A stretch of 64,000 nucleotides of DNA from Pareuzebyella sediminis (lineage in GTDB: Bacteria; Bacteroidota; Bacteroidia; Flavobacteriales; Flavobacteriaceae), in the NCBI RefSeq assembly GCF_008367235.1, contig NZ_VTZS01000005.1:310001-374000 (forward strand), given 5' to 3'. This document shows positions 26,204 to 49,802 of this stretch, piece by piece (the stretch's first letter is position 1; every line of letters begins with the position of its first letter). Made by a program: the position numbers and the translations under genes. The notes under the pieces are model-generated. The model was not told the origin of the DNA. It did not search any database and worked only from the letters and a program-made list of their open reading frames with translations.

Positions 26204-26212
26204 ATTCTTTAC

Positions 26213-26977
26213 TTATTTTCTGATTCCCTTAACGAAAGATTCCACATTTTTAGGTCCTTCTGCCATTACATGTTTGATGAACGCCGATCCGATGATGGCA
26301 CCATGGGCTGACTTGGTCGCTTGTTGAAAAGTTTCCTTATTGCTGATGCCAAAGCCGACAATCTGGTGGTTTGAAAGGTTCATGTCTGCGATACGTTTGA
26401 AGTACCGTTGTTGTTCTTCCCCAAAACCGGATTTGGCACCGGTTACGCTTGCAGAACTTACCATGTAAATGAAACCTTTCGACACGCTATCGATGAACCG
26501 GATGCGTTCTTCAGAGGTCTGCGGAGTAATTAAAAAGATATTTATCAGTCCATATTTTTCGAAAATGGGCTGATATTCAGAATGATAGACGTCGACCGGT
26601 AAATCGGGTATAATGAGCCCATCTATGCCGATATCCTTACATTTTCTACAAAAATCTTCGACACCGTATTTTAGTATGGGATTGAAATACCCCATAATGA
26701 TAAGGGGAATAGCAACAGATTTGCGAATATCTTCTAGCTGTTCAAAAAGAATTTTGGTCGTCATTCCATTCTTAAGTGCCTGGGTCGAACTTTTTTGAAT
26801 CGTAGGACCATCGGCCAAGGGGTCGCTAAAGGGAAGGCCTATTTCAATAAAATCTACTCCGCTTTTTTCCAAATCTTGAATAAGGGGCACGGTATCGTTC
26901 AATGATGGAAACCCTGCCGTAAAATAGATGGATAGTAGTTTATGATTTTCCTGAAGCTTCTGCTGTATTCGATTCAT
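26213..26977 (-). CDS. trpA: Tryptophan synthase alpha chain
   Basis: Cleaves indole-3-glycerol phosphate and passes indole to TrpB. About 254 residues from ATG 26977, which gives the usual MNRIQQKLQE start; an ATG 14 codons upstream would add an unusual tail. FTAGFPSLNDT, the catalytic IEIGLPFSDPLADGPTIQ (Glu and Asp), IIMGYFNP, GLIIPDLPVD and GFGISNKE are all present. Last gene of the trp operon; its stop faces that of the SusD-like gene with a gap of only 9 bases. Confidence 0.96.
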   Translation of the reverse strand: MNRIQQKLQENHKLLSIYFTAGFPSLNDTVPLIQDLEKSGVDFIEIGLPFSDPLADGPTIQKSSTQALKNGMTTKILFEQLEDIRKSVAIPLIIMGYFNPILKYGVEDFCRKCKDIGIDGLIIPDLPVDVYHSEYQPIFEKYGLINIFLITPQTSEERIRFIDSVSKGFIYMVSSASVTGAKSGFGEEQQRYFKRIADMNLSNHQIVGFGISNKETFQQATKSAHGAIIGSAFIKHVMAEGPKNVESFVKGIRK

Positions 26978-27044
26978 TTTGATAGGCGTGTCGGAAATGG
27001 GATCTTGAATTTTTGTCATTGATGGGTGGGCTTATGTTTACTTT

Positions 27045-28226
27045 CTAGAGTCCAAAATAGTCTATATACGTTTCTAGGTCTTTGTCGCCCCGCCCGGAGA
27101 GGTTCACGACCACGATGTCATCAGGGTTGAACTTTCGTTGTTCAAAAATCGCTAAGGCATGCGACGATTCTATTGCTGGAATAATACCTTCGGTCTTGCA
27201 GAGGTTCAAACCGGCTTTCATGGCATCGTCGTCAGTAATGCTAATAAATTCAGCCCTTCCGGATCGATATAGGTGGGCGTGCATCGGACCCACACCGGGA
27301 TAGTCCAACCCTGCAGAAATGGAATAGGGTTCCGTAATCTGCCCATCGGTAGTCTGCATCAATAGGGTTTTGCTTCCATGAATGATGCCTACCTTTCCCA
27401 AAGCCGATGTAGCAGCACTTTCCCCTGTATCGATACCTTTTCCGGCCGCTTCGACGGCAATGATTCCCACTTCTTCATTGTCTAGATAATGATAATAGGC
27501 ACCTGCGGCATTGCTGCCGCCACCGACACAGGCTACGACGTAATCAGGGTTCTCACGGCCTTCTTTCTCTTTCAATTGCCATTTGATCTCTTCAGAAATG
27601 ACCGACTGAAATCGGGCGACCATATCCGGATAGGGGTGTGGCCCAACGACCGACCCGATAATATAATGGGTATCGACCGGGTTATTTATCCAATCACGAA
27701 TGGCCTCGTTTGTAGCGTCTTTTAACGTCCGACTGCCCGATAGGGCCGGTCTTACTTCAGCACCCAACATTTTCATTCGTGCGACGTTAGGAGCTTGGCG
27801 TGCAATATCGATCTCGCCCATATATACCACACATTCAATTCCCATAAGGGCACATACGGTGGCCGTGGCCACCCCGTGCTGTCCTGCACCGGTTTCGGCG
27901 ATAATACGATTCTTACCCAATTTTTTGGCCATTAAAATTTGACCAATGGTATTATTGACCTTATGCGCTCCGGTATGGCAAAGGTCTTCCCGTTTGAGGT
28001 AGACCTTCGTATGGTACTTGTTCGAAAATCGCTCCCCAAAATATAACGGTGTCGGCCGACCCACATAGTCCTTAAGTAATTTAGAGAATTCTTCTTTGAA
28101 AGAAGGCTCTTGCATAATCTGGATGTATTGCCGACGAAGTTCTTCGGTATTCGGGTAGAGCATTTCAGGGATAAATGCTCCCCCGAATTCTCCGTAATAT
28201 CCTTTTTCGTTTGCGTGATATGACAT
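27045..28226 (-). CDS. trpB: Tryptophan synthase beta chain
   Basis: PLP enzyme making Trp from indole and serine in the alpha2beta2 complex. About 393 residues from ATG 28226 ([16 protein letters not shown]). The PLP lysine lies in [14 protein letters not shown], and the phosphate-binding [15 protein letters not shown], the catalytic [17 protein letters not shown] and the late [12 protein letters not shown] are intact, so this is the conventional TrpB1. It is followed at short distance by trpA. Confidence 0.96.
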
Positions 28227-28322
28227 ATCTAATTTTATTGTTCCCACCAAGTGGAAAATCTGTTTCAGAACACTTAGCTTAACTAAAACCCACAGGTTCT
28301 AAGCGGTATTCCCTAAAGTTTT

Positions 28323-28805
28323 TTATTCCAGTGCCCGGGTATTGGCCACTTCTCGATGGAGCTTCCATATTCCATCTTTTTTATCTTTTTTCAAAACGGC
28401 CAGAAATGTAGCCGTTAACTCAACGGACTCTCCATTTTCATCGGTATAAAAAGTGGAACTCGTTCCAAAATCATAGGCCACACTATCACTGACAATAATA
28501 GTCTCTTGGGGTTTCATAACCAAACTGTCGTAACTGAAAAGGCCGGAAGGATTGCTTCTTAACTTTTTAAACGGCTCCCATGCTCCGCATTCAGGGGTTA
28601 GGGACTTTACATTTTGAGTGGCATACGACATGAGATCCCCAAACCTATTTTCTTTAATGGCCAATTGAAAAGCTGTTCTCGTTTCTTCTATCAATGCCAG
28701 TTCAGCTTTGACATCAAGTGTATTTCCAGTATGTTCCTCATTCTTTTTACTTTTGTTGCAACAAAGGCAAACTAAAATCATTGAAGTTAATAGCAGTTTT
28801 TTCAT
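28323..28805 (-). CDS. NTF2-like (SnoaL/DUF4440-type) lipoprotein inside the trp operon
   Basis: 160 residues. The signal MKKLLLTSMILVCLCC has Cys15 or 16 as the likely lipid anchor. The mature part resembles the cystatin-like NTF2 fold: an N-terminal helix LALIEETRTAFQLAIKENRFGDLMSY, then strands VSDSVAYDFGTSSTFYTDE and VELTATFLAVLKKDKKDGIWKLHREVAN, where GxWKLxRE is characteristic of DUF4440-like proteins. Role unknown. It lies between trpF and trpB on the same strand. It has no obvious link to tryptophan synthesis, so it may be a passenger or have its own promoter. Confidence 0.75.
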   Translation of the reverse strand: MKKLLLTSMILVCLCCNKSKKNEEHTGNTLDVKAELALIEETRTAFQLAIKENRFGDLMSYATQNVKSLTPECGAWEPFKKLRSNPSGLFSYDSLVMKPQETIIVSDSVAYDFGTSSTFYTDENGESVELTATFLAVLKKDKKDGIWKLHREVANTRALE

Positions 28806-28846
28806 GCACCGGTGTTTTTATTGTTGTTACTACTTTTATTTGAATA

Positions 28847-29536
28847 TTAAAATTGTTGCATATCTTCTATAAATCTTTTCAATCGTTTTATATCCTTCCA
28901 TCCCGGTTCGATTTCAAATCCACTGTTGACATCAAGGGCATGGCAGTACTTCGACTCAGGTCGCTCTAAAAATGTTTTGATGGAATCTAATTGATCCGGA
29001 CCGATACCTCCACTTAAAAAATAAGGTTTGGTCGAAGGGTATTTTTCAAGGACCCTCCAGTCAAAAGTATACCCATTACCACCAGGAAGTTTCCCCTTGG
29101 TATCGAAAAGAAAGAAGTCACAAACTGGTTCATAGGGCATTACTACCGAAAAGTCAAAATTGTCTTTTATTGAAAACACCTTAATGACTGCAACATGCGG
29201 GGCCTTTTCTTTGACCGATGCGCAGAAATCCGGGTTTTCATTTCCATGTAATTGAACCAATAAAAGTTGATAATCCTCAATTCTCTCCAGAACTGTGGAT
29301 AGACTGGCATCGACGAATACCCCGACCTTTCTTATTCGGTGCGGGAGATGAGGTAGGGCGCCCTTGAAATAGCGTTGAGAAGGTTCCCAAAAAATAAATC
29401 CCATATAATCAGGTTGCAATGCCGTTACTTCCAAAGGATTCTTTTTCATGCCACAAACCTTAAGTTTAAGATTTGCCGTATCCCGTATGGTGGGCTTTTC
29501 TTTTTTTTGGGTATAGTTATAATCCATTTCGGTCAT
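28847..29536 (-). CDS. trpF: Phosphoribosylanthranilate isomerase
   Basis: TIM-barrel enzyme converting PRA to CdRP. 229 residues, slightly long because of a ~24-residue N-terminal extension before LKVCGMKK, which holds the catalytic Cys. MGFIFWEPSQRYF, RKVGVFVDA, VQLHGNENPDFC, then FFLFDTK with the general-acid Asp, and LSGGIGPDQL with a late LDVNSGFE match the family. A start nearer the conserved region is possible but no ATG sits at the expected place. It follows trpC by 9 bases. Confidence 0.94.
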   Translation of the reverse strand: MTEMDYNYTQKKEKPTIRDTANLKLKVCGMKKNPLEVTALQPDYMGFIFWEPSQRYFKGALPHLPHRIRKVGVFVDASLSTVLERIEDYQLLLVQLHGNENPDFCASVKEKAPHVAVIKVFSIKDNFDFSVVMPYEPVCDFFLFDTKGKLPGGNGYTFDWRVLEKYPSTKPYFLSGGIGPDQLDSIKTFLERPESKYCHALDVNSGFEIEPGWKDIKRLKRFIEDMQQF

Positions 29537-29545
29537 ATCGTCTAA

Positions 29546-30337
29546 TTAAACCGTACGATATAGGTCATTTATAAATGTTTGCGCACTGTCCCCAGGGTTC
29601 GAGGTCTTCATAAAATTTTCTCCGATCAAAAAACCCTCGTAACCGTAGCTTTTTAAATCTTGAATGGCTTCCACCGAACTGATTCCGCTTTCCGATACCT
29701 TGACGAAATCGTCGGGAATTTTTAGGGATAGTGTTTTGCTGGTGTCCAAATGCACCTCAAAGGTCTTTAGGTTACGGTTGTTCACACCGATCATATCAAG
29801 ACTGGGCATCATCGACTTTTTCAGTTCTTCTTCATTGTGTATTTCCAACAAAACCTCCAGTCCCAAATTTTTTGCCAATTCAGAAAGTGCTTTGACTTCT
29901 TCTCGTTGCAGTACCGCTGCAATAAGTAGGATTACATCGGCCCCATGGGCCTTTGCCTCTAAAATTTGATATTCGTCGACAATAAACTCTTTGCGTAGCA
30001 AAGGCAAATCGACCACGGCCCTAGTAAGCAATAAATCCTCCAACGAGCCACCAAAATATTTGAGATCGGTCAGCACGCTCATTCCACATACCCCTGCATT
30101 TTCGTAGCCGCAAGCCACTTGCGCTACATTGGTGTTTTGATTGATCACTTGTTTAGAGGGCGAACGTCTCTTATGCTCTGCGATAATACCCGTTTCACTT
30201 TCCTTTAACCGTGACACCAGAGAAATACAGGGCCGTTGAAATAGGTAGGAGGTCTCCCATTGAGAGGCAGGTACCACCTTTTTTTTTAGCGCTACTTCTT
30301 TTCGCTTATCAGCAATTATTTTTTCGAGTATGTTCAT
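29546..30337 (-). CDS. trpC: Indole-3-glycerol phosphate synthase
   Basis: Forms indole-3-glycerol phosphate from CdRP. 263 residues. Start MNILEKIIADKRKEVALKK. IIAEHKRRSPSKQVIN holds the catalytic Lys, SVLTDLKYFGGS, LLRKEFIVDEYQI with the second Lys, ADVILLIAAVL, LLEIHNEEEL, GVNNRNLKTFEV, KVSESGIS and GFLIGENFM are in order. TrpC and TrpF are separate, as in most Bacteroidota and unlike E. coli. Confidence 0.96.
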   Translation of the reverse strand: MNILEKIIADKRKEVALKKKVVPASQWETSYLFQRPCISLVSRLKESETGIIAEHKRRSPSKQVINQNTNVAQVACGYENAGVCGMSVLTDLKYFGGSLEDLLLTRAVVDLPLLRKEFIVDEYQILEAKAHGADVILLIAAVLQREEVKALSELAKNLGLEVLLEIHNEEELKKSMMPSLDMIGVNNRNLKTFEVHLDTSKTLSLKIPDDFVKVSESGISSVEAIQDLKSYGYEGFLIGENFMKTSNPGDSAQTFINDLYRTV

Positions 30338-30425
30338 ACTTCAACGCATTATTTTTCCTTAGTTTTCGAGTTTGCTCAAGAGCATTTGGATGTGGGCGAG
30401 GTCTTTGTTCTGTTGGGCATATGAT

Positions 30426-31421
30426 CTAGTTTTTACTTAACTCCTGCAATTTTTTTAAGGCCTTCAAACCTCTGCCGCTCATTAAAGAGTCCTGCGCCTG
30501 TTCGAAGCCGTCTCTTGGGCTCAAATTCTTGACCGTAGCGATGGCTACCCCAGCATTGGCACAAACTACGTCGTTTTGAGATTTGCTACCCCGACCTTGT
30601 AGGATATCAAGAAAAATTTGTGCCGATTCTTCGATGGTATCTCCCCCTACAATATCGGACTTTTGAACTGCCGTAACCCCAAAGTCTTCTGGTTTTAGAA
30701 TGCCTTCTGAATTATTTGAAATGGTTTTGGTATTGCCGGTCAATGAGATTTCGTCATATCCGTCAAGGGCGTGCAGTACCGTGAACCTTTTGTCCGTATT
30801 CTGGTAAAGGTACCCATACATTCGAGCCAATTCGAGGTTAAAGACACCCACCATTTGGTTTTTTGGAAAAGCGGGGTTGACCATAGGGCCTAGCATATTA
30901 AAAAATGTTTTGACGGCAAGTTCACGTCGTATGGGCGCCACATTTTTCATCGCCGGATGAAATAAGGGAGCATGCAATACACAGATGCCCGCTTCATCAA
31001 TACTTTTCTCCAAAAAATCAGCTTCATTACTGAACTTGACACCTAAAAACTCCATGACATTACTGCTTCCACACTTTGAGGATACCCCATAATTTCCATG
31101 TTTCGTGACTTTCACACCGGCGCCCGCTGTAACAAAGGAAGCCAAGGTAGAAATGTTAAAGGTGTCTTTGCCATCTCCGCCAGTACCGCACAGATCTATT
31201 GGGTTATATTGCGATAAATCTACCGACAAACAGAGTTCCAGTAGGGCATCTCGAAAACCTTCGAGTTCTTCTATAGTCACACTTCGCATCATATATACAG
31301 TCAAAAAGGCCGCAATTTGACTGGTATTGTAATCGCCGTTGGCAATATTGACCAAAACCTGTTTGGCATCTTCCTTCGGAAGAATTTCGTGGTTGATCAA
31401 TCTGTTCAATATTTCTTTCAT
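30426..31421 (-). CDS. trpD: Anthranilate phosphoribosyltransferase
   Basis: Joins anthranilate and PRPP. 331 residues. DLCGTGGDGKDTFNIST is the PRPP pyrophosphate loop, KHGNYGVSSKCGSSNVME lies at the Mg and anthranilate site, and FHPAMKNVAPIRRELAVKTFFN matches the hinge region. It is not fused to a glutaminase domain. The 88-base gap to trpC and the 112-base gap before it, from trpG, are the largest inside the E-G-D-C part of the operon. Confidence 0.96.
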   Translation of the reverse strand: MKEILNRLINHEILPKEDAKQVLVNIANGDYNTSQIAAFLTVYMMRSVTIEELEGFRDALLELCLSVDLSQYNPIDLCGTGGDGKDTFNISTLASFVTAGAGVKVTKHGNYGVSSKCGSSNVMEFLGVKFSNEADFLEKSIDEAGICVLHAPLFHPAMKNVAPIRRELAVKTFFNMLGPMVNPAFPKNQMVGVFNLELARMYGYLYQNTDKRFTVLHALDGYDEISLTGNTKTISNNSEGILKPEDFGVTAVQKSDIVGGDTIEESAQIFLDILQGRGSKSQNDVVCANAGVAIATVKNLSPRDGFEQAQDSLMSGRGLKALKKLQELSKN

Positions 31422-31533
31422 TCTTATTTTTTCTTTTAGGATTTATGAGGATATAGATCCACTTATGTGCGGGTTTTTTATCAAGAATCAAACGAATCTT
31501 AAGGTTTCAGTTCATCGATTTCACCTAATTCTA

Positions 31534-32106
31534 CTATTTCTTTTTAACCCAATTTTCCAACATTTTCTTTCCGTCAGGGGTTAATACCGATTCCGGATGG
31601 AATTGCACGGCGCACACGTCATAGCTCTTATGTCTCAATGACATGATCTGCCCGTTTTCGTCTACCGAAGTGGCCTCGAGAACCTCTGGTAGATTAGGGT
31701 GTACGACCCAAGAATGATATCGGCCAACCTCAATTTCATTGGGAATTCCTTCAAAGATAATATCATCTTTGATTACTTTTATTTTAGTTGCAGTGCCATG
31801 GTACACTTTATCTAGGTTAATCAACGACCCTCCGAATACCTCACCAATAGCTTGTAACCCTAGACAAACCCCGAAAATGCTCTTTGATGGTGCATACTTG
31901 GCAATAATATCTTTAAGAAGGCCCGCTTCATCAGGTATACCTGGTCCGGGAGAGAGTACAATTTTTTCAAAGGCCTCGACTTCTTCCAAGGTCAGCTGAT
32001 CGTTTCTTTTGACGGTTACCTCACAGTCTAAATCTTCTAGGTAATGCACCAGGTTGTAGGTAAAACTGTCGTAGTTGTCGATTACTAAAATCTTCTTCAT
32101 GCTCAT
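31534..32106 (-). CDS. trpG: Anthranilate synthase component II (glutamine amidotransferase)
   Basis: Supplies ammonia from glutamine to TrpE. 190 residues. IDNYDSFTYNLVHYL at the N-terminus, oxyanion strand LSPGPGIPDEAG, nucleophile Cys81 in GVCLGLQAIGE and the C-terminal His-Glu pair in VQFHPESVLT are present. Overlaps the trpE stop by four bases (ATGA-type coupling), ensuring equal synthesis. Confidence 0.96.
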   Translation of the reverse strand: MSMKKILVIDNYDSFTYNLVHYLEDLDCEVTVKRNDQLTLEEVEAFEKIVLSPGPGIPDEAGLLKDIIAKYAPSKSIFGVCLGLQAIGEVFGGSLINLDKVYHGTATKIKVIKDDIIFEGIPNEIEVGRYHSWVVHPNLPEVLEATSVDENGQIMSLRHKSYDVCAVQFHPESVLTPDGKKMLENWVKKK

Positions 32107-33500
32107 ATTGTTTTAGCAATTTCCAAAGCTTTGGTCAAGGCTCCCAGTTTATTATAGGTTTCCTGTAGTTCGTGTTCCGGATCGGAAGCCGCCACTAGCC
32201 CCGCACCGGCCTGGTAGTGCAAATGATGGTTTTTGCTAAGGAAGGTACGTATCATGATGGCATGGTTGAAATTCCCATTAAAATCCATAAAGCCTATGGC
32301 ACCGCCATAGTACCCCCGGCTTGTTTTTTCATACTTTTCGATCAATTGCATGGCCATATGTTTCGGTGCACCGCTCAACGTACCAGCGGGAAAGGTGTCT
32401 GCGACCACTTTCATGGTAGGAATATCTTTTTTCTTTTGTCCCGTAACCTTGGAAACCAAATGGATAACATGCGAAAAGAACTGTACTTCGCGATAATTTG
32501 CGACTTCGACCATATTTCCATTACGACTTAAGTCGTTTCTGGCTAAGTCGACCAGCATGACGTGTTCACTATTTTCTTTGTCGTCTTCGGTCAGCTCTTT
32601 GGCCAGAATAGCGTCTTGCTCATCGTTTCCGGTCCGTTTGAAGGTTCCTGCTATCGGATGTATCTCGGCTCTTCCGTTTTTGACGATCAATTGAGCTTCT
32701 GGAGAACTTCCGAATATCTTAAAATCACCATAATCAAAATAAAATAGATAAGGGGAAGGGTTTACCGACCGCAGTGCCCGGTACACATTGAACTCATCGC
32801 CTTTGAAGCCTTGAGAAAATCTTCTTGAAAGCACTAGTTGAAAGACATCTCCCCGTTGGCAGTGTTTTTTGGCTAAACGCACATGCTCTTTGTAACCTTC
32901 ATCCGGTAAATTGGAGATTGGTTCTCCTTCCAAAGAGAAGTTATAAGAGGCAAAATTACGCACATTCAAAATCTGCTCTATTTCGGCAATATTCGAATCG
33001 CGTTGAAAACAGTGCGCGAAAATATAGGCCTCATTTTTAAAGTGATTGATGGCTATGATATTTTGATAGACGGCATAGAAAATATCGGGTATTTCAATAG
33101 ATCCCTCCTTTTTGTTCAGTTCGATAGATTCAAAATAGCGCACCGAATCATAGGCCATATAGCCAAAGAGGCCGTTATAGATAAACTTAAAGTCATTGTT
33201 TTGGGTCTCGAACTTTTGGCTGAAATTATGTACAATTTCTGCTACGTCGGTCGTTTCTTTTATAACGGTTTCAATTATAGTTCCGTCAGGAAACGTTTCC
33301 ATGACCTTTTCATTTTCTACTTTTATCGAGGCAATCGGGTTACAGCAGATATAAGAAAAGCTGTTGTCATTAGCATGATAGTCGCTACTCTCCAGAAGAA
33401 TACTATTAGGAAATCGATCTCGAATTTTAAGATAGACACTTACCGGTGTTATGGTGTCGGCAAGAATCTGTTTGAAATGGGTGGTTAGTTGATATGACAT
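32103..33500 (-). CDS. trpE: Anthranilate synthase component I
   Basis: Makes anthranilate from chorismate. 465 residues. The N-terminal feedback domain contains LLESSDYHANDNSFSYIC, where an LLES-type motif forms part of the tryptophan-binding site in this family. The catalytic domain has GDVFQLVLSRRFSQ, PSPYLFYFDYGDFKIFGSSPE, HPIAGTFKRTG, the DKENSEHVMLVDLARNDLSR block and FPAGTLSGAPKHMAMQ with GAIGFMDFNGN. First structural gene after the attenuator, so it is controlled by charged tRNA-Trp level and probably by feedback inhibition. Confidence 0.96.
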   Translation of the reverse strand: MSYQLTTHFKQILADTITPVSVYLKIRDRFPNSILLESSDYHANDNSFSYICCNPIASIKVENEKVMETFPDGTIIETVIKETTDVAEIVHNFSQKFETQNNDFKFIYNGLFGYMAYDSVRYFESIELNKKEGSIEIPDIFYAVYQNIIAINHFKNEAYIFAHCFQRDSNIAEIEQILNVRNFASYNFSLEGEPISNLPDEGYKEHVRLAKKHCQRGDVFQLVLSRRFSQGFKGDEFNVYRALRSVNPSPYLFYFDYGDFKIFGSSPEAQLIVKNGRAEIHPIAGTFKRTGNDEQDAILAKELTEDDKENSEHVMLVDLARNDLSRNGNMVEVANYREVQFFSHVIHLVSKVTGQKKKDIPTMKVVADTFPAGTLSGAPKHMAMQLIEKYEKTSRGYYGGAIGFMDFNGNFNHAIMIRTFLSKNHHLHYQAGAGLVAASDPEHELQETYNKLGALTKALEIAKTI

Positions 33501-33521
33501 AGAAATTGATATAAAATAAGT

Positions 33522-33546
33522 AAGGCCTGTCGTGATGACAAGCCTT
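33522..33546 (-). terminator. trp operon attenuator hairpin
   Basis: On the minus strand AAGGCTTGTC and GACAGGCCTT pair over ten positions with one T-G wobble around a 5-base loop, then run into ACTTATTTTAT. It lies about 30 bases after the leader peptide stop and 22 bases before trpE. This is the expected position of the attenuator that ends transcription when Trp is plentiful. Confidence 0.75.
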
Positions 33547-33574
33547 ATATAGTTTTACTACAATGATGCTCAGC

Positions 33575-33631
33575 TCACGAAATCTGTCGAGAGTTGTTCC
33601 ACCACCAAGTATTTATTTTGAAATGTTTCAT
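33575..33631 (-). CDS. trpL: trp operon leader peptide
   Basis: 18 codons from ATG 33631 to TGA 33575: MKHFKINTWWWNNSRQIS. Three consecutive TGG codons occupy 33607-33599. A run of Trp codons in a short frame between a strong promoter and a terminator, directly ahead of trpE, is the hallmark of ribosome-mediated attenuation. The stop lies inside a possible small hairpin (CTC-CGA with TCG-GAG). Leader peptide composition in Bacteroidota varies, so the frame was identified by its Trp codons and position rather than by sequence likeness. Confidence 0.88.
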   Translation of the reverse strand: MKHFKINTWWWNNSRQIS

Positions 33632-33661
33632 TAAAAATGAATTCGAAAATCTTAGTTGGCT

Positions 33662-33692
33662 CAAATATAGAAATCATTTTTAAAATGACAAA
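33662..33692 (-). promoter_or_regulatory. trp operon promoter
   Basis: The minus strand has TTTG (33692-33689), a 19-base spacer and TATATTTG (33669-33662), a full match to the Bacteroidota consensus TTTG-N19-TAnnTTTG. Transcription would start near 33655, about 25 bases before the leader ATG and 155 bases before trpE. Confidence 0.85.
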
Positions 33693-33707
33693 CCAAAATT
33701 TTAAATT

Positions 33708-33742
33708 AAACCTCGCATCAAATAACTTGAATGCGAGGTTTT
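33708..33742. terminator. Terminator after yceI, possibly bidirectional
   Basis: AAACCTCGCAT and ATGCGAGGTTT are perfect 11-base arms around a 12-base loop, with T-rich DNA on both sides. It ends the marR-nitroreductase-yceI transcript immediately upstream of the trp promoter. Confidence 0.85.
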
Positions 33743-33761
33743 ATAGAAGAGTTTAAATTAA

Positions 33762-34337
33762 TTAGAATTCTAAATCGACTACAAGGTCGAACTCGTCATA
33801 GATAAGTTTATCGCCCAGGTTCTCGAAAAAATCGCCAGATCTAAATTTGATATCGTAGTCTGTTCTATCAACTTTCATGGTAGCAGTAGCTTTATTGCCA
33901 TAGATAGACACATCGAAAGTAATAGGTTTGGTAATGTCTTTAATGGTCAGGTCACCTGTAACCTCATAAGAATTCTTGCCTGTTGATTTTACATCTTTAA
34001 ATACCAATTTGGAAACGGAATGTTTGTCCACGGCGAAAAAATCATCAGATTTTAAATGACCTTCAAGTTTACCTTTGCCGTCACCTTCCATGTCGGTAGA
34101 AATCAGGGTCGGCATGTCTACCTCGAATTCGCCTCCAGTAAGCTTATCTCCGTCAAAAATCAAGGTTCCCGACTTTAGCTCGACCGTGCCGGTGTGCGAG
34201 CCAGTAACCTTATACGCTTTCCAAGTCACGGTACTTGCTTCAGTCTTTACCTCTTTCTTTTCTTCTACCACGGGCTCCGTAGCAGATGCGGCACCAAATA
34301 CAAGCGCCAATGCGATACTAAATACTTCTTTTTTCAT
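33762..34337 (-). CDS. YceI family periplasmic protein
   Basis: 191 residues with a signal MKKEVFSIALALVFGAASA. The lipocalin-like YceI fold is visible: VTWKAYKVTGSHTGTVELKSG (start of the first sheet strands), GGEFEVDMPTLISTD, GHLKSDDFFAVDKHSVSKLVF, VTGDLTIKDITKPITFDV and the final YDEFDLVVDLEF. YceI proteins bind isoprenoid-like lipids in the periplasm. It is the third gene of the marR unit, 35 bases after the nitroreductase. Confidence 0.93.
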   Translation of the reverse strand: MKKEVFSIALALVFGAASATEPVVEEKKEVKTEASTVTWKAYKVTGSHTGTVELKSGTLIFDGDKLTGGEFEVDMPTLISTDMEGDGKGKLEGHLKSDDFFAVDKHSVSKLVFKDVKSTGKNSYEVTGDLTIKDITKPITFDVSIYGNKATATMKVDRTDYDIKFRSGDFFENLGDKLIYDEFDLVVDLEF

Positions 34338-34372
34338 AATTTTAATTGTTTTGAATAATTCTAATTGTTGTT

Positions 34373-35002
34373 TTAAATATGTGTGATTAACTGTTTTTTT
34401 GGTTTCCTCACTTTTTTATAATGTTGGGTCTCATCATTCTTTGATCGATAGCCAAGGGTAACCAAGACGGCAGTATTCAAACTGTCATCTGACAACCCTA
34501 AAATATCGTTGAACTGCTCCCGATCGAAACCTTCCATAGGGCATGTATCTATTTTCATATCCGCTGCTGCCGAAAGTAGATTCCCTAAGGCGATATAGGC
34601 CTGTTTTTCGGTCCACTTTGCCTTTTCCTCTTGTGTAAGATCCAGTAGTTTCGATTTCATAAAGCTAGCGTATCCGGCTAAGTCTTCAACTGGAATGTTT
34701 CTGGTCTCACTGACATTTTGTAGATAGTCGTCTACAAGTTCCTCGCCAAAATCGGTTTGATTCGCCAAAACAATAAGATGCGAGGCTTCGGTAAGCTGCG
34801 ATTGCCCCCAAGCGGCCGGTTTTAATCTCGCTCTTAAAACCGGGTCTTCAATTACTATAATTTTGTAAGGTTGAAGCCCGTAAGATGAAGGGCTCAACGT
34901 AGCTGCATCCAGCAAAGCCTCCAATTTTTCTTCAGTTATTTCTTTGGTGCTGTCGAATTTTTTAGTGGCATATCGCCAATTCAAATTATCTATATAACTC
35001 AT
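34373..35002 (-). CDS. NAD(P)H-dependent nitroreductase family protein
   Basis: 209 residues, an FMN flavoprotein of the NfsB/NfnB type. RYATKKFDSTKEI is the family start, SPSSYGLQPYKIIVIED the FMN phosphate contact, SHLIVLANQ and KQAYIALGNLLSAAADMKIDTCPMEGFD the dimer and flavin core, and VTLGYRSKND the C-terminal block. It should reduce quinones or nitro compounds. Cotranscription with a MarR regulator fits an electrophile or redox stress function. Confidence 0.9.
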   Translation of the reverse strand: MSYIDNLNWRYATKKFDSTKEITEEKLEALLDAATLSPSSYGLQPYKIIVIEDPVLRARLKPAAWGQSQLTEASHLIVLANQTDFGEELVDDYLQNVSETRNIPVEDLAGYASFMKSKLLDLTQEEKAKWTEKQAYIALGNLLSAAADMKIDTCPMEGFDREQFNDILGLSDDSLNTAVLVTLGYRSKNDETQHYKKVRKPKKQLITHI

Positions 35003-35024
35003 TTTTGTATTATTGAGGTTTATT

Positions 35025-35471
35025 CTAAAATTTATCTAATAGGTCGTTCAAATGTTCCAAATCTTGCGGCTCTAGATTTTTTAAGACGTACCGTTCTGCT
35101 TCCTTCATGGCCACATCCATTTTTGAAAGGGCCTTTTCACCTTCAGGGGTAATGCGTATTTCTACTTTTCTGCGGTTGCTCGGGCAGACGATTCGGTCCA
35201 CATATTCCTTACTGATTAATTTATCGACCAGTCGGGTCGTATTGCTCATTTTTGTGACCATTCTTTCATTGAGTGTCGAGAGGTTGGCAGGTTTTCCCAT
35301 TTGACCCCGTAGAATCCGTAAAACGTTGAATTGTTGTAATGAGACTTCGAAAGGCTTTAAAGTAGCAGTAATAACTTCGTTTATATGGTTGTGTACCAAA
35401 CTTAAATGAATAATCGTCCGGCTCTCCAAAGGAATCTTTTTATCAGTTTTAATTACTTCTTCAACATTCAT
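35025..35471 (-). CDS. MarR family transcriptional regulator
   Basis: 148 residues with the winged helix in the middle: EVSLQQFNVLRILRG, then LSTLNERMVTKMSNTTRLVDKLISKEYVDRI and a wing RKVEIRITPEGEKALSKM. These repress genes until a phenolic or redox ligand binds. The first gene of the unit marR-nitroreductase-yceI. Its -7 box and a perfect palindrome lie 9 to 30 bases upstream, so autorepression is likely. Confidence 0.93.
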   Translation of the reverse strand: MNVEEVIKTDKKIPLESRTIIHLSLVHNHINEVITATLKPFEVSLQQFNVLRILRGQMGKPANLSTLNERMVTKMSNTTRLVDKLISKEYVDRIVCPSNRRKVEIRITPEGEKALSKMDVAMKEAERYVLKNLEPQDLEHLNDLLDKF

Positions 35472-35479
35472 GTCTATAC

Positions 35480-35501
35480 TACAATTGTATATACAAATAT
35501 A
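35480..35501 (-). promoter_or_regulatory. marR promoter with operator palindrome
   Basis: The minus strand reads TATATTTG at 35501-35494, a perfect -7 box. TACAATTGTA at 35480-35489 is a perfect 10-base palindrome that would cover the transcription start, and the marR ATG follows nine bases later. This is the arrangement of a self-regulated MarR gene. Confidence 0.6.
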
Positions 35502-35640
35502 TGATTATTTTAAAGGCTCTCAAGTAGGACGATCCCAATTATTTGTTAAACTTTAGTAGAATATCTTTAAGTCAAAATCCTTATTTTTGACACTCATATA
35601 AGAGAATGCCTTGTAAAAATGATTAGCTCCAAAAGAAGTG

Positions 35641-35648
35641 TAAGTTTG
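35641..35648 (+). promoter_or_regulatory. -7 element of the rhodanese gene
   Basis: TAAGTTTG matches TAnnTTTG, 37 bases before the ATG at 35686. A second match TATTTTTG lies at 35582-35589. No -33 at the correct spacing was found for either. Confidence 0.4.
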
Positions 35649-35685
35649 TCAAGGTGTCGAAAGACTTTACAAAATTGAAGTACCT

Positions 35686-35997
35686 ATGGATTTATCACAA
35701 GAAGAATGGGAAGATCAGCTGGCGAAAGATGACAACGCGGTCATCTTAGATGTAAGAACACCTGAAGAAGTGCAGGAGGGGTATATTCCCAAGGCTAGAA
35801 ATATTGATTTTTATCTAGGCCCTGATTTCATGGCAGAGATTGAAAAATTGGATAAAAATAAGAACTACTATGTCTACTGTAGAAGTGGCAATCGCAGTGG
35901 TCAGGCTTGTTCGCTAATGAACAATTTGGGAATAAAGAATGCCTACAATCTTGAGGGTGGTTTTATGAATTGGGCCGGGGATGTCGTTGAAGAGTAG
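35686..35997 (+). CDS. Rhodanese-like sulfurtransferase domain protein
   Basis: 103 residues, a single rhodanese domain: NAVILDVRTPEEVQEGYIPKARNID is the start, and the active site loop YCRSGNRSG holds the catalytic Cys, followed by LEGGFMNWAG. It transfers sulfane sulfur in the cytoplasm; no signal peptide is visible. Specific acceptor unknown. Confidence 0.92.
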   Translation: MDLSQEEWEDQLAKDDNAVILDVRTPEEVQEGYIPKARNIDFYLGPDFMAEIEKLDKNKNYYVYCRSGNRSGQACSLMNNLGIKNAYNLEGGFMNWAGDVVEE

Positions 35998-36096
35998 TAG
36001 TAGCTAGCTGCTCTATTTTAGTTTTCAAGGTTTTCGGTTCAGTTTTGGTCATGAAGGCGTTTATACGTAAAGGATAACTTTTACATTCTTTTATCT

Positions 36097-37371
36097 ATGC
36101 GAGAAGACCTGCTGCATTTTATCTGGAAGTATAAGAAATTGCAGGTGGCAGACTTGACCACAACTCGAAATGAGCCGTTAACCCTCATTGGAGCAGGCAC
36201 CCACAATTACTTGTCAGGACCGGACTTCTTAAATGCTCAGGTTAGAATCGGCGACCAACTTTGGGCAGGTAATATCGAGATTCATCTTAAATCTTCAGAC
36301 TGGTATGCGCATCATCATGAAACTGATGCGAATTACAATAATGTAATTCTCCACATTGTTTGGGAAGACGATATTGCAGTTTTTCACAGTGATAATTCTG
36401 AAATACCAACCCTTGAACTTCGAAATTTCATTTCCGAAGGATTGCTAGATCGGTATCGGAATCTTTTTGATCAGCAAGGGGTGAACTTTATCAATTGTGA
36501 AAAAGACCTTGTTGAAGTCGATACCTTTTTATTTGAAAAGTGGTTGGAAAGACTCTTCTTTGAGCGATTAGAGAATAAATCGAATTCAATTGACCAGGTT
36601 TTGAAAGCAACGAAAAATGATTGGGAACAGGTATTCTTTTGCCTAATAATGCAGAATTTTGGTCTAAAAATCAATTCTGAAGCCTTTCAAAGTATCGCCC
36701 GAGCGCTAAACTTTTCCGAGGTAAGAAAATTACAGTCAAGTGCATTTGCTTTGGAAAGTGTTTTTTTTGGTATGGCCCATCTTCTTGAAGATGAAAAGAT
36801 TGTAGATGACTATTACCTTAGATTGCGAAAGGAGTACGGGTATCTCAAAAAGAAATTCAATTGGAATGACGAAACGGTTTTAAAGCCCGAATTTTTTAAG
36901 TTACGACCTTATAATTTCCCCACGATTAGACTGTCTCAAGCCGCAAACCTGTATACCAGGCACAAAATGTTGTTTGTCGCCGTAATCGAAGCAAAAACGG
37001 TAGAAGAACTCTATTCGATATTTGATGTAGCTACGAGTAAATATTGGGAAGATCACTTCACCTTTGGAAAACAATCAAAGAAAAGCATTAAAAAACTTAC
37101 TAAGAAGTTCATTGACCTTCTAATTATCAATGCAGTTGTACCCATAAAATTTTGTTATGCCAAATTTACCGGTCAAATGATTGCCGAAGAGATTAGTGCC
37201 ATAGTATCCTATATTAAAAAAGAGGATAACGCAATACTAGAAAACTATGAACATCTAGGAGTGAAGGTTCGAACGGCTCAAGACAGCCAAGCGCTCTTGC
37301 AATTGTACAATCAATATTGTAGACCGAATAAATGCTTGGAGTGTGCGGTAGGGCAAAGACTGCTTCGGTAA
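36097..37371 (+). CDS. DUF2851 family protein
   Basis: 424 residues. The start MREDLLHFIWKYKKLQ and the blocks GTHNYLSGPDFLNAQVRIG, WAGNIEIHLKSSDWYAHHH, DANYNNVILHIVWEDD match DUF2851, a Bacteroidota family with a putative nuclease-like PD-(D/E)XK appearance: Asp in PDF, EIHLKSSDW with a Glu-x-Lys-like arrangement. Several Cys at the C-terminus (CRPNKCLECAVG) may bind metal. Function is not established. Confidence 0.85.
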   Translation: MREDLLHFIWKYKKLQVADLTTTRNEPLTLIGAGTHNYLSGPDFLNAQVRIGDQLWAGNIEIHLKSSDWYAHHHETDANYNNVILHIVWEDDIAVFHSDNSEIPTLELRNFISEGLLDRYRNLFDQQGVNFINCEKDLVEVDTFLFEKWLERLFFERLENKSNSIDQVLKATKNDWEQVFFCLIMQNFGLKINSEAFQSIARALNFSEVRKLQSSAFALESVFFGMAHLLEDEKIVDDYYLRLRKEYGYLKKKFNWNDETVLKPEFFKLRPYNFPTIRLSQAANLYTRHKMLFVAVIEAKTVEELYSIFDVATSKYWEDHFTFGKQSKKSIKKLTKKFIDLLIINAVVPIKFCYAKFTGQMIAEEISAIVSYIKKEDNAILENYEHLGVKVRTAQDSQALLQLYNQYCRPNKCLECAVGQRLLR

Positions 37372-37458
37372 TCCATCGAGTTTGGTGTAGCATGACCTTT
37401 TCGAAAACAATGGTAAACACCTGAGCGGGTATTTTAAATATTTTTGTACATATTCTTT

Positions 37459-37466
37459 TATCTTTG
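37459..37466 (+). promoter_or_regulatory. -7 element of the PspC gene
   Basis: TATCTTTG lies only four bases before the ATG at 37471, so the message would be leaderless or the promoter serves an internal start. A TTTG at 37443-37446 is too close to act as -33. Confidence 0.4.
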
Positions 37467-37470
37467 GGGC

Positions 37471-37698
37471 ATGCGGTTTTTTTATCAAATTCTTTATTAT
37501 TTCCAGAAGCGCGGTTTTGAAGTGTGTCGGCGAATCGCAGAACGCTTAGGAATTCGTGCACGGGTAGTACGCACTTCATTTATCTACCTGACTTTTGTAA
37601 CCTTGGGTTTTGGTTTTGCCCTATATTTGTTTTTGGCCTTTTGGTTGCGTATCAAAGATTTGATATATACCAAGCGCACTTCGGTTTTTGATCTTTAA
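37471..37698 (+). CDS. PspC domain protein
   Basis: 75 residues from ATG 37471. The cytoplasmic start RGFEVCRRIAERLGIRARVVRTSFIYLTFVT and one hydrophobic segment TFVTLGFGFALYLFLAFWL are typical of the PspC domain, which in enterobacteria senses phage shock. Here no pspA or pspB is near. The stop is 3 bases before the potassium channel gene, so both are cotranscribed. Confidence 0.8.
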   Translation: MRFFYQILYYFQKRGFEVCRRIAERLGIRARVVRTSFIYLTFVTLGFGFALYLFLAFWLRIKDLIYTKRTSVFDL

Positions 37699-37701
37699 TC
37701 T

Positions 37702-38709
37702 ATGATAAGACTCTTTCGTTCTAAGCTTTACTTGGCATTGACATTGGTCTTTGCCATTCTGATAACGGGGGTAATGGGCTATAGGTTCTTGGGTGAGTAC
37801 AGTTGGTTAAATGCGCTATACATGACCATCATTACCGTAACCACTGTGGGTTTTTCCGAAGTTGGCCCGATGAATACGGGTACTAGAATTTTCACCATAT
37901 TTTTGATTATAGCGAGTGTTGTCATTTTTGCCTTTGCCCTTTCCGTAATAACAGAATATATTTTGAGCAGAAATTCGTTGGATCTTTTAAAAAAGAAAAA
38001 AGTGAAAAATACAGTTGACAAGTTTAATAACCACGTTATCGTGTGCGGTTTTGGACGAAACGGAATGCAGGCGGCCGAGCGGTTGAACTCATATAAAAAA
38101 CCTTTTGTCGTGATTGAACGGGAAAGGGAGATTATCGATAAGTACCAAGAAGAGATGCTTTTTATCGAGGGTGATGCGAACGATGATGAGGTCTTGAATG
38201 CGGCGGGTGTAGAAAGGGCACAATATCTGATTGTAGCCTTGCCAGACGATGCCGCCAATTTGTTCGTGGTTCTTTCTGCCCGTCAGATGAATAGGGATCT
38301 TTTTATAATAAGTAGGGCGTCATTGGTGACCTCCCAGAAAAAATTACTTCTCGCAGGTGCCAATAAGGTAATCATGCCCGACAAAATAGGAGGGGATCAT
38401 ATGGCTTCACTGGTGGTTATGCCCGATTTGATCACGTTTATGGATAAGTTGGGAATGGAAGGAGAACATACCACTAACCTTGAGGAAGTGGCCATTGAAG
38501 ATTTCAAAGGTCAAGTCGATTGTAACTCGCTGCGCGATCTTGATTTACGAAAAAAAACAGGCTGTACAATTATCGGATATATAGAGCCCAATGGTAATTA
38601 TATAATTAACCCCGAGGCAGATTTACAACTACAGCCGAAGAGTAAGGTGATTGTCTTAGGCAGGCCTGAGCAAATCCGAAAACTAAATGAAATGTTCCAT
38701 ATTCAATAA
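37702..38709 (+). CDS. Potassium channel with TrkA (RCK) domains
   Basis: 335 residues. Two membrane helices (about 9-30 and 64-88) flank the pore loop with selectivity filter TVGF (48-51), a variant of TVGYG. The RCK part follows: HVIVCGFGRNGMQAAERL with a Rossmann loop, then IEGDANDDEVLNAAGVERAQYLIVALPDD, and a C-terminal TrkA-C domain beginning near VAIEDFKGQVDC. It should be a K+ channel gated by nucleotides or ions. Confidence 0.93.
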   Translation: MIRLFRSKLYLALTLVFAILITGVMGYRFLGEYSWLNALYMTIITVTTVGFSEVGPMNTGTRIFTIFLIIASVVIFAFALSVITEYILSRNSLDLLKKKKVKNTVDKFNNHVIVCGFGRNGMQAAERLNSYKKPFVVIEREREIIDKYQEEMLFIEGDANDDEVLNAAGVERAQYLIVALPDDAANLFVVLSARQMNRDLFIISRASLVTSQKKLLLAGANKVIMPDKIGGDHMASLVVMPDLITFMDKLGMEGEHTTNLEEVAIEDFKGQVDCNSLRDLDLRKKTGCTIIGYIEPNGNYIINPEADLQLQPKSKVIVLGRPEQIRKLNEMFHIQ

Positions 38710-38820
38710 TCGCGGTTGCGTTAATTCAACGTTATTATTTGATTGTAAAGCTTATTTTTAGGATATTGCCCGAACTTGAAAAAAAACCGTTCGCACAAGT
38801 ACCAATACCACACAAAAATT

Positions 38821-40893
38821 ATGAAGAAATTTACCGTACTGCTTTTTATGCTTTTTGGAATATTGGCTTTTTCCCAAGAACTGACTGTTACAGGAAAGGC
38901 CTTTAACCCTTCCCCAAGAATCAATGATGGGGTAATCGAATTGGAAGTGGAAGGGGGAACCCCGCCCTATCGGTATAAATGGAGCAATCAAGCAACATCC
39001 TTATCTTCAAAAAGATCTATGGGGCTTGTGGAAGGAATACCCTACACGGTTGAAGTTTCCGATGCAGCTGGCAATGAGGTAACCAAGGTATTTAAAGTAG
39101 AAACCGAAGCGATTGCAGAGGTCTTTAATGGAACTATGACCCCCGCAGTAAGCGCTTTGGGATCCGTGCTTTTCTGGGACCCTTTTGCGGGTATAGGTAT
39201 TTATGATCCCGTGGTTTACGCCGATGTAAAATTGGTGCCTACACCTGGATGGTCTTCGGACGTTAAAGATAAATTCGTGCTCAAGCAATGGTTGAAGCCT
39301 GAGGGTGCCAAGGTCAGTAAAGGCGAAAAGATTGCCGTGGTATCAAGTGATACAAAAGCCGATGAAACTGTTGTCGCTACAGCCAGCGGAACCTTACGTT
39401 ATCTTGTTCAAGAGGGTGAAACAATTTACAACTCAGAAAATGCCATGCATGTCATTGAACAGGGCGCACATAATTTGGCTGAAATAGAGTACGATGAACC
39501 TGAGGTAATCACCCATCCGAATGGAGACCCTGTAACCAAAGGGATTCCATTTATAGTAATCTGGTTGGTTCTAGGTGCCACCTTCTTCACGATACGCATG
39601 GGTTTTATCAATATAAGAGGTTTTGGACACTCCATTGATTTAGCCAAAGGGAAATATGATGACCCAGATGCTCCGGGCCAGGTCACCCATTTCCAAGCAC
39701 TGGCGACCGCAGTATCCGGTACCGTAGGTTTAGGAAATATTGCTGGCGTGGCCGTCGCTGTTTCTTTGGGAGGCGCAGGCGCTACTTTTTGGATGATTGT
39801 TTGCGGGCTACTAGGAATGTCTTCGAAGTTCGTAGAATGCACGCTTGGGGTAAAATATCGTGATATCCTTCCTGACGGTCGGGTATTTGGCGGTCCCATG
39901 AATTATTTGAGATACGGTCTTGAAAAGCGGAACCTAAAAGGATTTGGAAAGGTCTTGGCAGGCTTTTTTGCCGTATTGGCCATTGGTGCTTCATTTGGAG
40001 GAGGGAATATGTTTCAGGCCAACCAATCTTTTGAGCAATTGGCAGGTCAATTTCCTGTCTTGGCAGGAAATGGATTTTGGTTCGGCGTAGTTACTGCCGT
40101 TTTAGTCGGCGTAGTAATCATTGGAGGAATCAATAGTATCGCCAAGGTTACAGGTAGAGTGGTTCCAATAATGGCATCCATTTACATTTTGGCTGCGCTC
40201 GCGGTTATCATTATGAACATTCAGAATATTGGTCCGGCATTTTCGGCCATCTTCGAAGGCGCCCTTAACCCGTCTGCCTTGAAGGGCGGTATCATTGGCG
40301 TACTGGTCGTTGGTTTTCAAAGGGCCGCATTTTCTAATGAGGCCGGAGTAGGTTCGGCAGCAATTGCCCATAGTACCGCAAAAACGAATAATCCTCCATC
40401 CGAAGGTTTCGTTGCACTTTTAGAGCCATTTATCGATACGGTCGTGGTGTGTACCTTGACGGCCTTAGTACTTATTTTTACGGGTATGCACGAAGTTGAA
40501 GGTATGGCCGGTGCCCAATTGACTTCCGATGCATTTGGTAGCCAAATTTCTTGGTTCCCCTATGTGTTGGCCTTAGCGGTGTTCCTATTTGCATTTTCTA
40601 CAATGATTTCTTGGTCGTACTATGGAATGCGTGCATGGACCTACCTATTTGGAAAGAGTAAAAAATCTGAAATGGTTTACAAAATGCTCTTCTTGGTATT
40701 TGTGGTTATCGGGGCTTCCGTCAGTTTGGGTGCCGTACTCGATTTTTCCGATATGATGATCTTGGCGATGTCGTTCCCGAATATTATAGGGCTCTACATT
40801 ATGTCTGGGGAGGTTAAGGGCGATTTGAACGAATATTGGAAAAAATTGAAGGCCAACCAGCTCTTTAAAAAACAGCTGAAGACTAAGGAATAG
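38821..40893 (+). CDS. Alanine/sodium symporter with SprB-like and lipoyl-like N-terminal domains
   Basis: 690 residues from ATG 38821; a start 15 codons upstream lacks a signal character. Order: signal peptide (1-19, ending AFSQ), a SprB-repeat-like domain (about 38-93, [16 protein letters not shown] to [15 protein letters not shown]), a biotinyl/lipoyl-like domain (about 150-213, [17 protein letters not shown], with LVQEGE) and then the AGCS symporter from about 240 ([21 protein letters not shown] and [20 protein letters not shown], the glycine-rich Na+ and substrate site). The domains sit outside the cytoplasm, so lipoylation is doubtful even though a Lys179 is in the right neighbourhood. 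The usual substrate is alanine or glycine. Confidence 0.88.
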
Positions 40894-49421: not shown

Positions 49422-49802
49422 ATGGCAGATTTAAAAGAATTCGCAGAACAGTTGGTAAACTTGACCGTTAAAGAGGTGAACGAGTTGGCCGATATATTAA
49501 AAGATGAGTATGGCATCGAGCCTGCAGCCGCAGCAGTAGCAGTAGCCGCTGGTGGTGGAGCAGCAGAAGGTGGTGAAGCCGCTGAAGAGCAGTCTGAGTT
49601 CGATGTAATATTGAAAGCTCCAGGAGGTTCTAAATTGGCAGTGGTTAAATTGGTTAAAGAGTTGACCGGTCTTGGATTGAAAGATGCCAAAGACATCGTC
49701 GATAGCGCACCAAAAGCCGTTAAGGAAGGTGTTTCTAAAGACGAAGCTGAAGGAATCAAAAAATCATTGGAAGAAGCAGGAGCGGAAGTTGAGCTTAAAT
49801 AA
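49422..49802 (+). CDS. rplL: 50S ribosomal protein bL7/L12
   Basis: 126 residues. N-terminal dimerisation helices ([23 protein letters not shown]), an Ala/Gly-rich hinge ([20 protein letters not shown]) and the C-terminal factor-binding domain [20 protein letters not shown] with [19 protein letters not shown]. Followed by a hairpin that probably reduces read-through to rpoB. Confidence 0.97.

Follow-up and report, generated by a model that had tools for sequence, protein, structure and literature searches.

A trp operon attenuator of Flavobacteriaceae with a putative antiterminator directed at the terminator apex

Introduction

Before the trp operon of the 64,000-nt stretch of DNA analysed here (the window) lie a short frame with three consecutive Trp codons (WWW) and a terminator hairpin, raising the question of whether this locus is a ribosome-mediated attenuator and, if so, which RNA pairing would keep the terminator from forming. 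In E. coli, the antiterminator of the trp attenuator is formed by base pairing to the 5′ arm of the terminator. The helix terms used for the enterobacterial trp attenuator are II:III and III:IV (PMC1183508). Actinobacterial trp attenuators contain double or triple UGG codons and a GC-rich terminator with a U tract, and their complementary triples gGCC-rGCy-GGCC form a classical antiterminator/terminator pair (PMC1262725).

Within the Bacteroidota, the Bacteroid-trp motif (Rfam RF01692) comes from a comparative screen and is listed in Table 1 of that work (PMC2864571), a Bacteroid-Trp RNA has been placed by sequence before the F. psychrophilum trp operon (PMC6414381), and leader-peptide attenuation before amino-acid operons has been inferred in Flavobacterium psychrophilum (PMC9723704). 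The accessible parts of the two F. psychrophilum papers publish the inference of both the attenuation and the RNA and give no antiterminator. Nor was a Bacteroid-trp antiterminator found in the accessible parts of the literature searched, and an earlier description is possible.

Results and discussion

The trp leader locus

The promoter, Trp-codon frame and terminator before trpE are confirmed as real features of this locus (Table 1), and the letters contain all that the sequence-only reading described, namely the consensus promoter, the 18-codon frame and its three TGG codons, and the hairpin. When the 261-nt intergenic region was shuffled with its dinucleotides preserved, a frame of 6–45 codons with WWW appeared in 0/20000 shuffles, and the leader frame is therefore not a product of chance. 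Similarly, the RNA of 33660–33510 folds with z = −3.95, a stability reached by 0/200 shuffles. In a scan of 33450–33800 (0.1 sites expected), the hairpin at 33547–33521 was the only terminator-like site; it has a T-rich tail and ends 20 nt before trpE, placing an intrinsic terminator downstream of the leader frame and ahead of the first gene, as in an attenuator. Judged by its letters and those of its homologues, the locus is very probably a leader-peptide (ribosome-mediated) transcription attenuator of the trp operon, a known kind of element, in which stalling of the ribosome would provide the response to Trp.

Table 1. Features of the trp locus, in coordinates of the window
Feature	Position	Strand	Details
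trp attenuator region	between YceI-family gene (end 33762) and trpE ATG (33500)	minus	
Promoter	33662..33692	minus	−33 TTTG 33692–33689, 19-nt spacer, −7 TATATTTG 33669–33662
Rfam RF01692 Bacteroid-trp match	33537..33646	minus	41.9 bits, cut-off 49; whole model (1–131)
Leader peptide ORF	33575..33631	minus	MKHFKINTWWWNNSRQIS + TGA, 18 codons; ATG 33631, stop TGA 33577–33575; similar WWW frames in relatives
Three consecutive Trp codons	33599..33607	minus	TGGTGGTGG; from letters, conserved in homologues
Putative antiterminator, 5′ strand UCGUGA	33575..33580	minus	last three letters are the leader stop codon; starts 18 nt after last Trp codon
Possible pairing partner of the Trp codons (1:2 hairpin)	33556..33568	minus	duplex −9.4 kcal/mol, weakly supported
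Intrinsic terminator hairpin	33521..33547	minus	stem 33547–33537 / 33531–33521, 11 bp, loop ATCAC, tail CTTATTTTAT
Putative antiterminator, 3′ strand UCACGA	33530..33535	minus	terminator loop and first 3′-arm bases
trpE, first gene of the operon	32103..33500	minus	best NCBIfam match trpE, score below that model's curated cut-off
trpG, trpD, trpC, trpF, small lipoprotein-like ORF, trpB, trpA	26213..32106	minus	trpF below curated cut-offs; weak DUF4440 match for the small ORF

Like trpE, trpF scored below curated cut-offs, with no better name for either gene. Between trpF and trpB, a 160-aa lipoprotein-like ORF (28323–28805) has a weak DUF4440 match below the cut-off. A palindrome, AACCTCGCAT...ATGCGAGGTTT (33708–33740), lies 3′ of the upstream YceI-like gene and is perhaps the terminator of that gene; it is absent from the list of the terminator scan. 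Another copy of TGGTGGTGG is found in the window at 49550–49558 on the plus strand.

Conservation of the Trp-codon leader

Three sets of loci were compared. The close set comprised the window and its best 80 trpE relatives in the genome collection (81–87% identity; Maribacter, Arenibacter, Zobellia, Cellulophaga, Flagellimonas and other genera). The family set comprised 148 genomes, one per genus with the window included, the family being taken as Flavobacteriaceae from the names of the close relatives, while the distant set comprised 44 loci with 46–62% TrpE identity, mostly from other families and orders.

At 75/81 close loci, TGGTGGTGG occurred in a short frame at most 300 nt from trpE, and at the remaining six it lay 466–554 nt upstream of trpE with UCGUGA and UCACGACA elements behind it, giving a Trp-codon run before trpE at 81/81 loci. 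Three TGG codons were found in 136 genomes of the family set plus three more, and in a further nine one of the three is replaced, leaving two Trp codons (148/148). The sequence-only reading had proposed a ribosome-mediated attenuator with a WWW leader before the trp operon, to be checked by looking for a Trp-codon run in the trpE leaders of related Flavobacteriaceae, and the presence of this run in every close and family genome upholds that proposal. The leader extends to the distant set, where at least two Trp codons were present in a leader frame at 42/44 loci (40 with WW or WWW and two with WLW); no Trp leader was found at the distant loci L300 and L320, and the stretch before the L320 trpE resembles trpB by its letters.

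A seeming absence of the leader at six close and three family loci was an artefact, and at eight of these the attenuator sits further upstream because an ORF or its remnant intervenes. This small ORF, which we take to be GIY-YIG-like, lies between the terminator and trpE at L032, L070, L081, L087, L089 and L101 (about −360 to −10 relative to trpE) and at L328 and L329. Palindromes like TTTCCGCGAAGGCGGAAA and TTTCCACCTCCGTGGAAA flank it at five of the six close loci (no match in L032) and at L328 and L329, and from its sequence the palindrome-flanked ORF looks like an inserted small mobile unit. The flanking-palindrome pattern occurs three times in genome G067, six times in G111 and not at all in the genome of the window.

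Promoter and leader start

Transcription is predicted to start at 33657 or 33656. The box-to-start distance of 4–5 nt used here comes from a study in which this spacing is seen at many F. johnsoniae promoters, and in which Bacteroidota mRNAs are described as being without Shine-Dalgarno sequences (PMC6847099). A TAnnTT(T/A/C)G box with TTG 16–24 nt upstream was recognised at 71/75 close and 128/144 family loci. At 62 of these 71 close loci, the in-frame AUG closest to WWW on its 5′ side stands 4–8 nt downstream of the −7 box, and in 44 of the 62 the distance is exactly 5 nt; the leader mRNAs of these 62 loci are therefore predicted to be leaderless, a class reported to be small in F. psychrophilum (5.5% of mRNAs; PMC9723704). 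The distribution is broader in the family set, with 4–9 nt in 43/123 loci and mostly 10–22 nt in the others. In the window, unlike in most of its close relatives, 30 nt separate the −7 box from the leader AUG, which by folding prediction can enter a small hairpin.

A pairing between leader and terminator apex

Comparative and folding evidence supports an antiterminator formed by UCGUGA in the leader and UCACGA, which spans the loop and first 3′-arm bases of the terminator. A contiguous leader–apex helix of at least 5 bp (G–U allowed) was found at 218/219 distinct loci, a count that skips nine loci with no leader in the stretch analysed and draws on two sets sharing some genomes. This helix beat dinucleotide shuffles (p ≤ 0.05) in 131/144 genera versus 1/144 for the same leader segment with the 5′ arm. 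No antiterminator element was found in L243. A whole-genome search of the window's genome for a pattern with both antiterminator strands returned the trp leader as its sole match, and a search of the same genome for five His codons returned one match, antisense to a gene.

Covariation was assessed in an alignment of 60 rows enriched for deviating rows. The six core pairs formed in 351/360 cells, three of the pairs changed on both sides, and the covariation score of the core helix was reached by 0/500 shuffles. For example, matched changes in the two strands occur at L248 (TCGTAAAC/GTTTACGA) and L250 (TGTCGCAAT/ATTGCGACA). A control helix slid by +3 had a covariation of 0.079 versus 0.066 for the actual helix, with 51% of its cells paired, and a seventh pair (columns 34–105) formed in just 20/60 rows. 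The terminator was paired in 100% of cells with letters in the same alignment, with four pairs changed on both sides. Exchanging leader segments within the family cost little (own −11.92 kcal/mol; permuted mean −11.81, sd 0.05; best of 2000 permutations −12.02), since the letters of the core hardly vary.

The distance from the last Trp codon to the start of the element is 18 nt at 74/75 close loci and 18–19 nt in 136/143 genera. Its phase relative to the Trp codons is 0, 1 and 2 in 102, 36 and 5 genera, respectively, and the leader stop codon ranges in position from −11 to +8 nt relative to the element start across the 143 genera. With phase and stop position varying and spacing fixed, it is therefore the distance and the RNA strand that are kept, not the end of the peptide. 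Taken as a whole, the comparative and folding evidence points to an antiterminator that would exclude the terminator and would be hidden once a ribosome reaches the stop codon of the leader.

A predicted kinetic switch

With the last Trp codon in the ribosomal A site, the element would remain free, and a ribosome at the stop codon would cover it. In the proposed mechanism, RNA polymerase would start near 33657 and a ribosome would translate the 18-codon leader. Where charged tRNA-Trp is ample, the ribosome would pass WWW to the stop codon and cover UCGUGA, allowing the hairpin at 33547–33521 to form and transcription to end before trpE. Where charged tRNA-Trp is short, the ribosome would stall on WWW and UCGUGA, 18 nt downstream, would stay free to pair with UCACGA of the nascent terminator, keeping the hairpin open so that the trp genes are transcribed. 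Sequence and comparison support the conserved leader frame, the terminator and the UCGUGA:UCACGA pairing at its fixed distance from WWW, and leader translation, stalling, the timing of folding and the Trp response are inferred.

A folding model built from the window's letters and an assumed ribosome footprint is consistent with this scheme. In transcripts ending 18–20 nt into the terminator, the probability of the antiterminator was 0.91–0.97 when the ribosome was absent or stalled at WWW, and 0.00 when it stood at the stop codon. At 22 nt, the corresponding values were 0.53 without a ribosome, 0.85 with the ribosome at the first Trp codon and 0.97 with it at the third. The complete terminator wins at equilibrium in every ribosome state (0.98), and the switch must therefore be kinetic, chosen while the 3′ arm leaves the polymerase; the advantage of the antiterminator in the model is short-lived (two bases). 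The model also predicts that, unlike in E. coli, read-through rather than termination would result without leader translation.

Other families and apex geometry

Apex pairing with different letters occurs at distant loci, for example at L291 (TTGAATCGG:CCGATTCAA), L302 (CGCTGTGA:TCACAGCG) and L317 (TTGCCGGGT:ACCCGGCAA), and where such pairing is good among the distant loci, the leader strand lies 12–19 nt after the last Trp codon. Pairing with the 5′ arm was found at L303 (CGGGGTTCTG with CAGAACCCCG), L306, L314 and L315 (p ≤ 0.05). When each of 40 distant loci was compared with its own shuffles, nine reached p ≤ 0.05 for apex pairing and four for the 5′ arm, while swapping leader segments among these loci weakened both pairings (permutation p = 0.00005 each, uncorrected for relatedness). 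Two genomes from one genus of another family have tandem Trp attenuators before trpE, each with a WWW leader and its own terminator (L028:90–360 and L332, the latter on the minus strand), and the second attenuator of the tandem shows a matched change of leader and loop (TGCGGGA:TTCCGCA in L028 versus TGTGGG:CCCACA in L332).

From these comparisons we hold, with moderate confidence, that an apex-directed antiterminator operates in Flavobacteriaceae and some other Bacteroidota, in which a strand 18–19 nt after the last Trp codon, often including the stop codon, would invade the loop and 3′ side of the terminator. Its letters would change wholly between lineages while the geometry is kept or switched to the 5′ arm, and the leader mRNA of most close relatives, though not that of the window, would be essentially leaderless.

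Alternative pairings and readings

An attenuator of the textbook form would have a leader segment, or the stretch between leader and terminator, pairing with the 5′ arm of the terminator. The sequence-only reading had offered a weakly visible candidate of this form, GACAG with TTGTC, and although both motifs exist in the window, they were paired in 52.3% of cells without any compensatory change and 478/500 shuffles paired at least as well, so this antiterminator was not borne out. The 5′ arm fared no better with other partners, as pairing beat shuffles in the single genus given above for the leader segment and in 3/144 genera and 0/75 close loci for the intervening stretch. A classical 5′-arm antiterminator was consequently rejected for the Flavobacteriaceae, and even with some loci of other families fitting it (e.g. 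L303, L306, L314 and L315) we consider this reading very unlikely. A somewhat less unlikely reading accepts the helix between UCGUGA and the loop as real but regards it as a loop contact, a pseudoknot or kissing pair that tunes the efficiency of a formed terminator. All pairs changed on both sides do fall in the loop part (columns 99–101), and L291 has a complete 9-base complement inside a 12-nt loop. However, the pairs also include 3′-arm bases, with GUCGUGA:UCACGAC in 46/220 rows and about five arm bases paired in L302 and L317, and a base cannot pair twice; a loop contact is thus improbable as the main function.

The main switch might instead be the pairing of the Trp codons with a downstream stretch, as in the RF01692 drawing, with the terminator acting as a separate default. 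The Rfam consensus structure pairs the same region, and the mean duplex energy in the close set was −9.25 kcal/mol versus −6.99 for shuffles, with the window at −9.4, yet this pairing surpassed shuffles (p ≤ 0.05) in only 16/75 close and 20/144 family loci and includes several non-standard pairs in the window's own RF01692 match. Such a 1:2 pairing is plausible in the window's clade, while its standing as the main switch is highly improbable. The remaining reading concerns what is sensed, as in tnaC, where peptide-dependent ribosome arrest senses free tryptophan. The residues flanking WWW show partial conservation, often reading NTWWWxNLR at the close loci, but one of the three Trp codons can be lost (WWC, WWH, GWW, CWW) and the end of the peptide differs where the frame is shifted relative to the element. 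Codon counting therefore fits better than one arrest peptide, and sensing of free tryptophan in place of codon starvation has only the faintest probability here. The apex-directed antiterminator, read through codon starvation, remains our preferred account.

Comparison with known attenuators

The window's match to RF01692 (E = 0.0011 for 401 bases and 0.038 for 14 kb) falls below the gathering cut-off, while it shares with Bacteroid-trp the position before trp genes, the phylum and a match along the full model, and relatives scoring over the cut-off have the same parts as the window. Across 60 genomes, the window's own included, RF01692 was matched in 39 at E ≤ 1 and in 24 over the cut-off. 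In a phylum-wide draw with stricter filters (E ≤ 0.01), it was found in 21/198 genomes, 19 of them from the window's family, although nearly all distant loci (42/44) have a leader with at least two Trp codons. The model stops at the 5′ arm of the terminator, leaving out the rest of that hairpin and the UCGUGA:UCACGA helix. No T-box family was among the four Rfam matches in 26000–40000 (E ≤ 5). The isrJ, mir-1297 and MIR7533 matches nearby were far below their cut-offs and taken as chance, the isrJ match overlying the palindrome behind the YceI-like gene.

The likeness to the enterobacterial attenuator drawn by the sequence-only reading holds for its logic, as the window shares with E. coli trpL a run of Trp codons in a leader peptide, alternative RNA helices and a terminator before trpE, but not for the geometry of base pairing. 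The putative antiterminator of the window contacts the loop and 3′ side of the terminator, not its 5′ arm, the stop codon of the leader is part of the antiterminator strand, and the folding model shows no default termination without translation. Similarly, actinobacterial attenuators resemble the window in their UGG run and terminator and differ from it in their classical antiterminator pairing.

Conclusions

The kind of attenuator found here is already known, and the new part is the putative apex-directed antiterminator. With it, a sparsely described Rfam motif becomes a testable switch with both halves named, and the RF01692 model, which currently falls short of the 3′ arm of the terminator, could be improved. 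A 6-bp swap would offer a cheap handle on whether blocking the apex of a terminator can give antitermination. For the family, the comparison gives a Trp leader in every Flavobacteriaceae genome examined, together with a spacing rule of 18–19 nt.
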